The position numbers and the translations under genes are program-made. Shown here in pieces: positions 7,140 to 34,504 of a stretch of 35,111 nt of DNA. The stretch is from Candidatus Gastranaerophilales bacterium (GTDB lineage Bacteria; Cyanobacteriota; Vampirovibrionia; Gastranaerophilales; Gastranaerophilaceae), in contig CALUYX010000007.1 in the NCBI GenBank assembly GCA_944325115.1, forward strand, positions 1 through 35,111. The letters run 5' to 3'. Under the pieces are notes generated by a model. That model saw nothing but the letters and a program-made list of their open reading frames with translations, was not told the DNA's origin and made no database searches. Each line of letters starts with the position of its first letter. The stretch's first letter is position 1.

Positions 7140-9787
7140 AATATGCAAAAAAAATAAGCACATTTTTACTGATACTTTTTGTATTTGCGTTCATTCCGCT
7201 TTCTTCTTTTGCAAAAGATTATGTTAGCGAGAAATTGAAAACAGGACAAAATGTTATCGTTAAAAAAGTAAGTGATAACCCGACTGTTACAATTGATACC
7301 TGGATAAAAACAGGTTCAATAAATGAAGATGACAAAAACTCGGGCGTTGCACATTTTCTTGAACATTTGTTTTTTAAAGGAACGGAAAAAAACCCGACAG
7401 GCACGTTTGATAGAGTTCTTGAAAGCAAGGGTGCAAATACAAATGCCGCTACAAGTAAGGATTTTACGCATTATTACATAACAATCCCCTCTAAAGATTT
7501 TGACCTTGCACTTTCTTTGCACTCTGATATGCTCCTAAATCCCCTTATTCCAAGAAAAGAGCTTGAAAAAGAGCGTCTTGTAGTGCTGGAAGAAATTTCT
7601 AAAGGAAATGACAGCCCTCAAAATGTTATGTGGGAAAATCTTTTTGCTCTGATATATGGACAAAATGAACCTAAGCACCCCTACTTTAGACCTGTGATAG
7701 GTAAAAAAGAAGTTATAGAAAAAATTACAAGAGAAGAGATTTTAGACTTCTATAATAAATTTTACGTCCCTGCGAATATGACAACTGTTATTGTAGGTGA
7801 TGTAGAACCTGAAGAAACAATAAGAAAAGTTGAAAAATACTTTGCTCCTCAAGGAGAAATAAAAGAATACCAAGAGCCTCTGTATCCTAAAATCCAACCG
7901 TTAAATAAAATTATTAGAGTAAATAAGGAAATGGATATAAACAGAGCTTATATGGCAATGGTCTTTAAAGCTCCAAAATTTAGAGAAGACAAGGATAACT
8001 ATGCACTTGATGTTTTAGCTACAATTTTAGGGGACTCAAAAAGCTCTAAACTTAATCAGATTTTAAAAGAACAAAAGCACCTTGTCTACAGCATAGACGC
8101 TTCTAATTCTACCTTTATGGATGATGGGTTATTTTCAATAACTGCAACACTTGACCCCAAGAACCTTGCAGATTGTGAAAAAGAAGTTCTGAATGAAATT
8201 AAGAAAATTCAAAACGGTGATGTTGCGCAGGCTGATATAAATAAAGCTAAAAATATGATTAAAACAGACACTTATTATTCTCGTGAATCAATTTCAAATA
8301 TTTCAAATGAAATAGGCTACTTGACATTGTTTTGGGGAACAACTGCATATTATGATAACTACTTAAATAACATAGATAAAGTTTCAAGAGCTGATGTTAT
8401 AAGAGTTGCAAAAAAATATTTGACACTAAATAAATTTGCGGTTTCAACAGTTGTACCAAAAGAAGACAATCTAAAAGAGGTGGCACACATTGCAGCGGCA
8501 GCAAAAATCCCCACTGAGCCTAAGATTCTCGAACAAAACAAAAACACTACAAAGTATCTTCTCTCTAACGGGGCTGAGCTTATAATAAAGAAAAACACTT
8601 CAAATTCAATTATAGCAATAGATATAGAGGCAAAAGGCTCTAAAATATTTGAAAAAACACCCTCAACAGGTTTGCTTGCGGCAGCTACCGTAAAACAAGG
8701 TACAAAAAAATACTCAAACTCCGAGCTTGCAAATCTTCTTGATGAAAAAGGGATAAAGCTTGGTTTGTCCTCAGGTGTCGATACTTTCTCTATTGCAATG
8801 CAGACAACCTCAAACGAGCTTGACAGTGCACTTAATGTGTTGGATGAGATTGTAAATAATCCTGTTTTTTCAACGTCTGAAACAGAAAAAATGAAATCCT
8901 TAAAAGAAGCTGACTTGAAAAAGGTTCAGGATAACGCTATGTCAATAGGGCTTGATGAATTTAAAAAGATAGCCTTTGGCGGCACATACTACGGTCAAAA
9001 TTCAAAGTATTTGCTTGAAAAAATTCCATCAATTACTCCTGATGATTTAAAAGAGTATTATGGCAACATTTTGGATGCAAAAAACATAGCAATAACCGTT
9101 GTGGGAAATGTTGACGATAAAAAAATAATTGAAAAAATGGAGTCTGTTTTTTCTTCTAAATCAGCAAGAAAAGTTGACTACAAAAGCGAAAAGATGAACA
9201 CTTTTGTGCCTCAAAAAAATGTTGATGCGGTTTTTATAAAACCTGATACTCAAACAGCGTGGGTCTTTGTGGGGTACAAAACTTGTCCTATATACAACGA
9301 AAAAGATATAGCAACTCTTAAAGTAATAAATGCAATTTTAGGTGAAGGTATGAGCTCAAGACTTTTTCAAAATCTAAGAGATGAAAAGGGTCTTGCCTAT
9401 ACTGTAGGCTCAACCGTTCTGCAGAATATCTTGGACGGTGTATTTATAGCGTACATTGGTACAAATAATCAAAGCGTAGATGTTGCAAAGCAAGGAATGC
9501 TAAATGAAATTGCCGCACTCAAAAGTGAATATGTAACGCAAAAGGAATTGCAGGAAGCTAAAGACAAAATTTTAGGCAACCTTGTGATTTCCATCGAAAC
9601 AAATATGGATGACGCTTCACTCCTTGGATATTGGGGTGTAAGCGGCAGAGATATTGATTACCTTGAAAAATACAAAAAACAAATAAGTGAAGTTAGCCAA
9701 AATGACATTTTGGAATTTGCAAATAAATATTTCTCAAAACCTTACATATCAACAGTTGTAAAGGCATCAGATTCTGTGTTAAAATAA
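7136..9787 (+). CDS. Exported M16 family zinc metallopeptidase, two-domain (PqqL/insulinase-like)
   Basis: An 883-residue peptidase with a signal peptide (about 1-26, ending SSFA). The first M16 half has the inverted zinc motif HxxEH (H73, E76, H77 in HFLEH) and the distal glutamate in VVLEEISKG (E152 or E153, about 76 residues later). The second half (about 470-883) lacks HxxEH but keeps the GMSSRLFQNLRDEKGLAY substrate-binding signature of the non-catalytic M16 lobe. The fused active plus inactive lobes form one clamshell enzyme that degrades or trims peptides in the periplasm. A GGGGG-type ribosome site lies 7 bases before the start. It overlaps the radical SAM gene by 4 bases and precedes the helicase by 7. 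Confidence 0.93.
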   Translation: MKYAKKISTFLLILFVFAFIPLSSFAKDYVSEKLKTGQNVIVKKVSDNPTVTIDTWIKTGSINEDDKNSGVAHFLEHLFFKGTEKNPTGTFDRVLESKGANTNAATSKDFTHYYITIPSKDFDLALSLHSDMLLNPLIPRKELEKERLVVLEEISKGNDSPQNVMWENLFALIYGQNEPKHPYFRPVIGKKEVIEKITREEILDFYNKFYVPANMTTVIVGDVEPEETIRKVEKYFAPQGEIKEYQEPLYPKIQPLNKIIRVNKEMDINRAYMAMVFKAPKFREDKDNYALDVLATILGDSKSSKLNQILKEQKHLVYSIDASNSTFMDDGLFSITATLDPKNLADCEKEVLNEIKKIQNGDVAQADINKAKNMIKTDTYYSRESISNISNEIGYLTLFWGTTAYYDNYLNNIDKVSRADVIRVAKKYLTLNKFAVSTVVPKEDNLKEVAHIAAAAKIPTEPKILEQNKNTTKYLLSNGAELIIKKNTSNSIIAIDIEAKGSKIFEKTPSTGLLAAATVKQGTKKYSNSELANLLDEKGIKLGLSSGVDTFSIAMQTTSNELDSALNVLDEIVNNPVFSTSETEKMKSLKEADLKKVQDNAMSIGLDEFKKIAFGGTYYGQNSKYLLEKIPSITPDDLKEYYGNILDAKNIAITVVGNVDDKKIIEKMESVFSSKSARKVDYKSEKMNTFVPQKNVDAVFIKPDTQTAWVFVGYKTCPIYNEKDIATLKVINAILGEGMSSRLFQNLRDEKGLAYTVGSTVLQNILDGVFIAYIGTNNQSVDVAKQGMLNEIAALKSEYVTQKELQEAKDKILGNLVISIETNMDDASLLGYWGVSGRDIDYLEKYKKQISEVSQNDILEFANKYFSKPYISTVVKASDSVLK

Positions 9788-32264: not shown

Positions 32265-33491
32265 ATGCCAACATTTTCTTATACAGCACTAAAAAATAAT
32301 AAGGATATAGTAAAGGGCAAGCTCGAAGCTCAAGACGCTCGCTCTGCACGTGCTGCACTTAAAAAAATGGGGTTGTTGCCTACAAAAATCACTGATGACT
32401 CTGTTGTTGATAAGTCGCTTGGTCAGGCTGTTAGTAAAAATATTCTCCCGACAAAAATCAAGTCTTTTTCTCTAAAGGATAAAATTGAGTTTACGCAGAC
32501 TTTGCAAATTCTTACTTCTACAGGTATTCCAATCATCGAAACGCTTGTATTCTTGGAAAATAATGCCGAGTCAAAAGCGATTCGCTCTGTTGCCCATGAA
32601 ATAAGACGAAACATTATCGCAGGCGGTTTAACATTGGCTGAGACACTGGAGAAACACCGCAAAATATTTGGCAGGGTTTTTGTCGGTCTTGTAAAAGCAG
32701 GTGAAGACTCAGGTGAACTTGATAGAACCTTGACACGTATGCTGGAACTTTTAAAGAAACAAGATGATATTAAAAGCAAGGTTGTAGGAGCACTTGTTTA
32801 TCCGATATTTGTAATTATACTTGCTTGTCTTGTAGTTACTGTAATGTTGGTCTTTGTATTTCCGGCATTCAAAGAAATGTTTGACAATTTAGGCAGAGAG
32901 TTGCCGCTAATGACTCAAATATGTATGTCATTAGGCTTGTTTATAAGAAAATTTTGGTTTGTGCCGATTATCTTTGTCACATTTTTAGTGTTGGCAATAA
33001 AACATATACTTGCAAATGATGTCACAAAAAGACCCGTGGACAAATTTTTCCTTGAAATACCACTTCTGTCGGACTTGTTAAGGTTTGCAAATTATTCAAA
33101 CTTTCTTGCAGTTCTTCAGGTTGCCTATGAAGCGGGTATTCCGATTGTTGATTGCTTGTACCTTGCTAATATGACTATCGATAACTTGGTTTTAAAGGAT
33201 GCAATTTTGGCTGCAACAACAAAAGTTCAACAAGGTGTGCATTTATCTGTTGCGCTAAGGCAGTCAAATCAAATTCCAAATATGATGACATTTATGATTG
33301 CAACTGGTGAACAATCAGGTAGATTGGGTGAGTTACTGCATCACTGTACGACATTTATTGACCAAAGATTAGATGGCATTATTGATAAGTTTACAAAACT
33401 TGTTGAGCCTGCAATGTTAATATTTATAGGTGCAATTGTACTGTTTTTGGCACTGTCACTATATATGCCGCTATTTGCCGCTTACGGCTAA
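32265..33491 (+). CDS. gspF: GspF/PilC-type inner membrane platform protein
   Basis: A 408-residue polytopic protein that works with the GspE ATPase to extract pilin subunits. It starts MPTFSYTALKNN, as the family does, and has two T2SSF repeats (about 65-190 and 270-395), each with an FTQ/LAVL-type start, and three membrane segments (about 172-196, 218-240 and 378-402). AAGGTG lies 7 bases before the ATG. It is the last gene of the operon; the structured noncoding element begins three bases after the stop. Confidence 0.93.
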   Translation: MPTFSYTALKNNKDIVKGKLEAQDARSARAALKKMGLLPTKITDDSVVDKSLGQAVSKNILPTKIKSFSLKDKIEFTQTLQILTSTGIPIIETLVFLENNAESKAIRSVAHEIRRNIIAGGLTLAETLEKHRKIFGRVFVGLVKAGEDSGELDRTLTRMLELLKKQDDIKSKVVGALVYPIFVIILACLVVTVMLVFVFPAFKEMFDNLGRELPLMTQICMSLGLFIRKFWFVPIIFVTFLVLAIKHILANDVTKRPVDKFFLEIPLLSDLLRFANYSNFLAVLQVAYEAGIPIVDCLYLANMTIDNLVLKDAILAATTKVQQGVHLSVALRQSNQIPNMMTFMIATGEQSGRLGELLHHCTTFIDQRLDGIIDKFTKLVEPAMLIFIGAIVLFLALSLYMPLFAAYG

Positions 33492-33498
33492 AGAACCT

Positions 33499-33541
33499 GC
33501 GAAGCTTGAATCGTGACGGTTACGTCCGATGAAAGCGAGCA
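33499..33541 (+). repeat. 43-bp direct repeat, copy 1
   Basis: Identical over all 43 bases to 33606-33648. In this copy the flanks CCT and GG extend the stem, making a closed 48-base hairpin. Confidence 0.95.
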
Positions 33542-33605
33542 GGCATAAGGATGTGAGCCCGAACGGGAAGGCGAGAGCCTTGCCGACAGGGCGAAACTCG
33601 ACTAG

Positions 33606-33648
33606 GCGAAGCTTGAATCGTGACGGTTACGTCCGATGAAAGCGAGCA
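33606..33648 (+). repeat. 43-bp direct repeat, copy 2
   Basis: Exact second copy, offset by 107 bases. The flanks do not extend the stem here, so copy 1 looks like the fuller version. Confidence 0.95.
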
Positions 33649-33664
33649 TATGAAATAATTTAAG

Positions 33665-33693
33665 TTTCTTAAACTCACTTTTTGTGCTATTAT
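33665..33693 (+). promoter_or_regulatory. Candidate tpiA promoter
   Basis: TTTCTT (33665-33670), 17 bases, TATTAT (33688-33693). The leader would be about 28 bases and holds AAGGAG (33715-33720), 7 bases before the chosen start at 33728. Confidence 0.45.
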
Positions 33694-33727
33694 TTGTATG
33701 TTGATACAAAAAATAAGGAGTTTAAAA

Positions 33728-34504
33728 ATGAGCAGAAGACCTATTATTGCAGGTAACTGGAAAATGCACAATAACCGTGAAGAAAGCAAAAACCTTGTTT
33801 GCGGTATTAAAGAAGCAATTAAAGATATTGACAAAGACGCGCTTCCTGAGGTTGTTGTAGCTCCCGTGTTTACTTCTCTTGGCGTAGTAGCTGATGAAAT
33901 TGCAAGCTGCGGTTGCGGAAAAATTAAACTTGCTGCACAAAATTGCTACTATGAAGCAAAAGGTGCTTTTACAGGTGAAATTTCAATCGATATGATTAAA
34001 GATTTTGACGCTAAATTTATTATCATTGGTCACTCTGAACGTCGTCAATTGTTTTCTGAAACAGATGAAATGATTAACAAAAAAGCAAAAGCTATAATAG
34101 AAGCAGGTCTAACTCCTATTATCTGCTGTGGTGAAACACTTGAGCAAAGAGAACTTGGCGTAACAGACTCTCATATTGCTTCTCAAATTGTAAAAGCTCT
34201 TGAAGGTATTGCACCGACTGACGTTGCAAACGTTGTTATCGCTTATGAACCTATCTGGGCAATAGGCACAGGCAAAACTTGTGACAGCACTGAGGCAAAC
34301 AGAGTAATTAAGGGCATTAGAGCTACTGTTGCTCAAGTTGCAGGCAAAGAAAATGCCGATAAAGTAAGAATTCTATACGGCGGTTCTGTTAAACCCGAAA
34401 CTATTAAAGAACAAATGGCTCAATCTGATATTGATGGCGCTTTGGTTGGCGGCGCAAGCTTGAAAGCTGACAGCTTTGCTCAAATCATCAAAGGTGCTAT
34501 GTAG
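33728..34504 (+). CDS. tpiA: Triosephosphate isomerase
   Basis: A 258-residue glycolytic enzyme interconverting dihydroxyacetone phosphate and glyceraldehyde-3-phosphate. Active-site residues are N10 and K12 in AGNWKMH, H102 in IIGHSERR and E174 in AYEPIWAIGTGKT. The phosphate-binding YGGSVKP and GGASLK are also present. An upstream in-frame ATG at 33698 would add ten residues that the family lacks and would lie before the AAGGAG; the start at 33728 is preferred. The gene has stronger codon bias features (few rare codons) than its neighbours, as expected for a highly expressed enzyme. Confidence 0.97.
   Translation: MSRRPIIAGNWKMHNNREESKNLVCGIKEAIKDIDKDALPEVVVAPVFTSLGVVADEIASCGCGKIKLAAQNCYYEAKGAFTGEISIDMIKDFDAKFIIIGHSERRQLFSETDEMINKKAKAIIEAGLTPIICCGETLEQRELGVTDSHIASQIVKALEGIAPTDVANVVIAYEPIWAIGTGKTCDSTEANRVIKGIRATVAQVAGKENADKVRILYGGSVKPETIKEQMAQSDIDGALVGGASLKADSFAQIIKGAM

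Follow-up and report, generated by a model that had tools for sequence, protein, structure and literature searches.

For the GC-rich island directly downstream of a pilus gene in the 35,111-nucleotide stretch of DNA analysed here (the window), an earlier note had proposed an undescribed structured RNA; a stand-alone RNA gene is not supported. The two kinds of hairpin in the island, A and B, belong to a family of dispersed hairpin repeats, able to nest in one another, of gut Gastranaerophilales. At this locus they form a resident A-B-A array, which is probably kept as a stability element in the 3′ UTR of the pilus-operon mRNA. The source organism is a Candidatus Galligastranaerophilus species. 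The features of the locus are as follows.

32265..33491, plus strand: gspF/pilC-like gene for an inner-membrane pilus protein (open reading frame; TIGR02120 GspF, E 1.1e-91, below the curated cut-off)
33496..33543, plus strand: hairpin A, copy 1, with outer stem CCTGC/GCAGG (from the fold; tandem GA/GA pairs and one bulged U in the inner stem)
33499..33541, plus strand: first copy of a 43-nt exact direct repeat (from the sequence)
33552..33597, plus strand: hairpin B (match to model R1; covariation)
33606..33648, plus strand: hairpin A, copy 2, identical with the second copy of the 43-nt direct repeat and without the outer CCTGC/GCAGG stem
33685..33693, plus strand: probable extended -10 promoter element of tpiA, TGCTATTAT (read from the sequence and from 15 orthologous gaps)
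33728..34504, plus strand: tpiA, triose-phosphate isomerase (TIGR00419, above cut-off)

The gap between gspF and tpiA measures 236 bp and has a GC content of 0.44, compared with 0.36 for the window. The gspF stop lies at 33491, the GC-rich non-coding block (33499-33648) starts a few bases later, and hairpins A, B and A lie within the first 160 bp of the gap. When 33480-33670 was folded, the plus strand formed three hairpins (-75.5 kcal/mol, shuffle z -5.67), as the earlier note had described for this block, and among 934 segments of 150 nt from both strands of this DNA the island was the most stable, whichever strand was considered. In the predicted fold, hairpin A is built as GCUU-GA-AUCG-U-GACG...CGUC-CGAU-GA-AAGC and hairpin B comprises the stems GCCC/GGGC, CGG/CCG and AAGGC/GCCTT together with a 3x3 internal loop, a G-G mismatch and a GAGA loop. 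Thus, the tandem G-A pairs and the GAGA loop noted earlier are both present. The GA pairs indeed favour the plus strand (-65.0 versus -46.8 kcal/mol for 33499-33648); however, the statement that they stabilise only that strand was too strong, since the island is palindromic and the minus strand of 33480-33670 also folds well (-60.0, z -4.60). Two facts had been overlooked: hairpins 1 and 3 are identical, and the same modules occur elsewhere in the genome. The outer CCTGC/GCAGG stem of hairpin A is unvaried in seven distinct type-2 orthologues, and the inner stem covaries.

A search of Rfam at gathering and relaxed thresholds yielded no match for the island, A or B, nor any meaningful weak match, in line with the earlier view that the element matches no familiar RNA family. 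No intrinsic terminator, defined as a GC-rich stem followed by a U run, was found in 33300-33900. A simple promoter scan did not detect the TGCTATTAT element, which is located upstream of tpiA and downstream of the island. The motif is, however, seen again in nearly all 15 congener gaps, hence tpiA probably has its own promoter.

Copies of the element are widespread within the genus. The exact B pattern was matched in 13 contig stretches, labelled as Candidatus Gastranaerophilales, Candidatus Galligastranaerophilus intestinavium or uncultured bacterium, and the island was matched somewhere in 14 of 15 genus genomes. Comparison of the gspF-tpiA gap in 15 congeners (G numbers denote genomes, C numbers contigs and L numbers sequence stretches) revealed a hairpin array in 12 species, a collapsed remnant in G009 and no array in G005 and G012; in all, 13 of the 15 have related modules at this site. 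The gspF island is therefore not essential, being missing in two of the 15 species and mostly lost in a third. R1, a model of B, matched 24 of the 239 genomes in a family sample, 13 of them in the genus; a single genome had as many as 11 matches. All nine matching genomes of an order-level sample (192 genomes, overlapping the family sample) belong to the same family. The B core pattern had no match in the viral contigs searched, and a limited literature search returned no description of such repeats in Gastranaerophilales.

The gspF arrays read A-B-A, A-B-A-B-A and so forth, the number of A-B units varying among species. Within a locus the A copies are identical or nearly so, and they differ between species. 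Type 1 A, with the inner stem GCTTGAAT..., is confined to one clade (G000, G002, G010, G011 and the G009 remnant), and the type 2 inner stem of the other species is mostly ATAAATTT...; the CCTGC/GCAGG base is common to both. Other copies of B follow typA, fabI and rnpB, and still others lie among ribosomal-protein genes in G096, next to a tRNA-Gly in G001 and at further sites. In the genome from which the window comes, an A-type array lies 3′ of yidC, a gene named by eye from its sequence. At gspF in G002 and at rnpB in G000, G002 and G009, B is interrupted by yet another module, C. Presence and absence could be followed at single sites: the typA 3′ end carries the island in four of 13 species, and at the rnpB 3′ end a lone terminator-like hairpin, X, in G005 is matched by X-B-X′ in five congeners, an empty and a filled site. 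In G007 the same site reads X then B and runs into the contig end. More generally, about half of the other loci checked have the layout (X-B)n-X, in which B is flanked by direct repeats of a local sequence X, ~17-60 nt long, and the rest do not; some of these direct repeats may be tandem duplications and not insertion marks. For the family, the earlier suggestion of a mobile palindromic unit has thus held up on multi-locus copies, nesting, presence and absence, and insertions within genes. Many contigs terminate in hairpin arrays, indicating that the repeats break assemblies; in two draft genomes rnpB itself is cut at contig ends.

Orientation was surveyed in ~825 kb of sampled DNA. Both orientations are present, and among loci between co-directional genes ~8 copies are sense and 4 antisense, which is not a significant difference. 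On this tally a strict sense orientation of the family was rejected, and given the mixed orientation the modules are primarily a family of DNA repeats. In G002, three identical copies that contain B (C7, C12, C21) were considered as definers of the element ends and were dismissed, because they fall within longer 3′ regions that are repeated among pilin-like genes. Near-identical 3′ regions (FTLAELLTAVLVISV) are common to several pilin-like genes in G002 (L152, L158, L159, L160), possibly a product of pilin gene conversion. A second, different dispersed repeat, CAGGGTGACGG... / GTCATGCTGAATTTATTTCAGCATC, forms large intergenic clusters on contig C1 of G008 (L080-L093; for example 99871-100256, 120991-121428 and 213541-213844).

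Modules have also entered genes. The P12 arm of the class A RNase P RNA is ~37 nt long in G000, G002, G009 and G011 and exceeds 200 nt in G005; in G003 and G012, whose rnpB sequences are truncated by the ends of contigs, it contains B itself. The RF00010 search found no rnpB in G008 and G006. Expansion of the P12 arm by mosaic hairpins was seen at L021, L028, L044 and L048-L050 (rnpB of G012, G003 and G005). In NrdJ, the vitamin B12-dependent ribonucleotide reductase, a linker carries one to several in-frame payload hairpins in G001, G003, G007, G008, G012 and G013 and is short, without payload hairpins, in G000, G002, G004, G009, G010 and G011; G005 and G014, with long reading frames, stand outside these counts. 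One of these payloads is shared with arrays at gspF (84% identity over 69 bp, E 5e-15). The linker lies near the C-terminus, and the parsed segment ranges from 70 to 178 aa between species, with repeats at L091:18838-18906 (G008) and L184-L188. The nrdJ module DNA differs by 0-3 of 50 bases, whereas in most pairs some 20-40% of the third positions that can be compared in its flanks differ.

At gspF, the 46-nt B differs between species by 9.1% on average, compared with 52.3% for four-fold sites and 21.5% for all sites of gspF; in three species the B of this locus is the same in all 46 nt. The B stem forms GCCC/GGGC and GCGC/GCGC follow a deep species split in the gspF-tpiA tree (support 99/98), and the type-1 form of A is a single clade in that tree (support 93/92). 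This low divergence of B, together with the match of stem and A forms to the tree, fits vertical inheritance under constraint and not recent re-insertion. The gspF element appears to be old within the genus and looks vertically inherited and constrained. Whether mobile or constrained, the modules are both, depending on the locus.

The earlier note had held that homologues lacking compensatory stem changes would refute an RNA; when homologues were examined, compensatory changes were found, and the proposal was not refuted in this way. Across three alignments, 11 stem pairs have changed on both sides and two show a one-sided G-U change, and in each alignment the covariation score lies above almost all shuffles and above every slid control. 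The hairpin shape is thus maintained, judging by covariation. In the elements, two-sided pair types number 12 and G-U types 2, and G-U pairs fill 2 of 441 cells, compared with 10 of 84 in helix P14 of RNase P RNA from the same species; this contrast reaches p 3e-7 by cells, which are not independent, and p 0.07 by distinct types, which is only suggestive. A single template-switching event during replication can alter both arms (PMC8794818). Since compensatory changes can also arise in this way, covariation alone is no proof of selection at the RNA level, and the near-absence of G-U pairs suggests that template switching also shaped the stems. As a separate observation, on contig C5 of G000 (~8668-8887, L112) a tRNA 3′ end is directly and inversely repeated around a hairpin, the pattern expected of template switching. 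On contig C7 of G008 (~7433-7755, L094) partial tandem copies of a tRNA 5′ half have small hairpins between them, as if a piece of a tRNA gene had been duplicated in a similar way.

Purely selfish or mutational palindromic DNA, which brings no benefit, spreads by transposition or hairpin template switching and lets one arm template the other, would account for much of this behaviour. Copies within RNase P P12 and inside nrdJ, the occurrence of both orientations and the nearly G-U-free stems are all in its favour, as is the known capacity of template switching for such changes (PMC8794818). It falls short at gspF, where B changes about six times more slowly than four-fold sites. Unbiased conversion or template switching does not lower the neutral rate, and unbiased correction of one arm by the other would not slow change, which calls for either selection on the sequence or a process biased towards GC. 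Moreover, an AT-rich genome should erode GC-rich DNA, yet B is kept. We regard this explanation as possible but unlikely. At the other extreme, a dedicated cis-regulatory or trans-acting RNA of the pilus operon, be it riboswitch-like or an sRNA, would fit the conserved position, sequence and covarying structure at gspF, but the same modules are also found next to genes with no relation to the pilus, within RNase P RNA and within a coding sequence, the number of A-B units varies between species and Rfam holds no relative. Such an RNA is improbable. For the family as a whole, the antisense copies found relative to neighbouring genes at several loci are a poor fit to any obligatory RNA role.

With respect to the mode of spread, short intergenic palindromes that are paired and arrayed recall REP/REPIN-type elements moved by a RAYT (Y1 transposase). 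This origin is very improbable, since Y1_Tnp (PF01797) is missing from 14 of the 15 congeners, and among the ten near-complete genomes from nine. A RAYT/Y1 enzyme as the mover is largely refuted, PF01797 being present in one of 15 genomes and absent from the window's own. A reverse transcriptase (PF00078) was likewise considered as a required partner and rejected: it is present in nine of 15 genomes, and is missing in several genomes with many copies (G002, G010, G011) and in the window's own incomplete genome. We also considered a distinct class of hairpin modules, which would insert beside or into resident hairpins, duplicate a whole hairpin to give (X-payload)n-X, do without a Y1 transposase and have its sequence selected wherever it landed, in 3′ UTRs, RNase P P12 or nrdJ. 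We hold this reading to be doubtful; if true, it would imply an as yet undescribed copying mechanism or a protein dedicated to hairpin binding.

The explanation that we favour is the resident array kept as a 3′-UTR stability element. According to this model, the family, which belongs to Candidatus Galligastranaerophilus and some relatives, spreads and rearranges as short palindromic modules nesting in each other, with the local sequence X left as direct repeats on either side of the payload hairpin. Replication template switching would help to keep the arms matched. The gspF island, lying in sense orientation directly 3′ of the stop, would be transcribed as the 3′ end of the pilus mRNA, where its GC-rich hairpins with GA pairs most likely block 3′ exonucleases between gspF and the separately promoted tpiA. 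Enterobacterial REP units stabilise upstream mRNA and slow 3′ exonucleases, and by analogy with them such a barrier is the most likely role at gspF. The earlier suggestion of a 3′-UTR stability or processing element thus receives indirect support, through the conservation and the compensatory stem changes at the gspF locus.

These modules add a palindromic-repeat family in non-photosynthetic relatives of cyanobacteria. It has entered three kinds of host, a 3′ UTR, a ribozyme arm and a protein linker. Both filled sites and empty ones occur among the 15 species, and the family's locus-wise conservation and nearly G-U-free compensation make it a good test case for RNA selection versus template-switch mutation. 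Like REP, BIME and REPIN sequences, the modules are intergenic palindromic units, often 3′ of genes, but they have no RAYT partner, are nested and multi-modular and also lie within genes. With MITEs they share the character of small, non-autonomous, dispersed repeats without genes. On the other hand, terminal inverted repeats like those of a known transposon were not seen, and where a flank is duplicated, at about half of the loci, the repeat measures 17-60 nt, often about a hairpin's length, in contrast to the 2-10 bp target duplication of MITEs.

In their behaviour alone, the modules are closest to the cyanobacterial STRR and SDR repeats and to the Rickettsia palindromic elements (RPE). STRR and SDR are reportedly small, nested and possibly mobile repeats. 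In heterocystous cyanobacteria the gene for RNase P RNA carries tandem repeats, much as Gastranaerophilales modules, including B, are found in P12, and the nesting of C within B is a further likeness. However, STRR are heptamer arrays and SDR measure 21-27 bp, whereas the modules described here are longer, GC-rich hairpins of conserved architecture; homology is not expected. RPE are short palindromic repeats, with several families per genome, that occur between genes and in frame inside unrelated protein genes (PMC10969869). They are ~150 bp long and encode a conserved peptide, whereas the Gastranaerophilales modules, from an unrelated phylum, are 45-110 nt long, tandem or nested and mostly non-coding. 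Akin to RPE, the modules are nevertheless also inserted in frame, in one gene only, within the linker of nrdJ.
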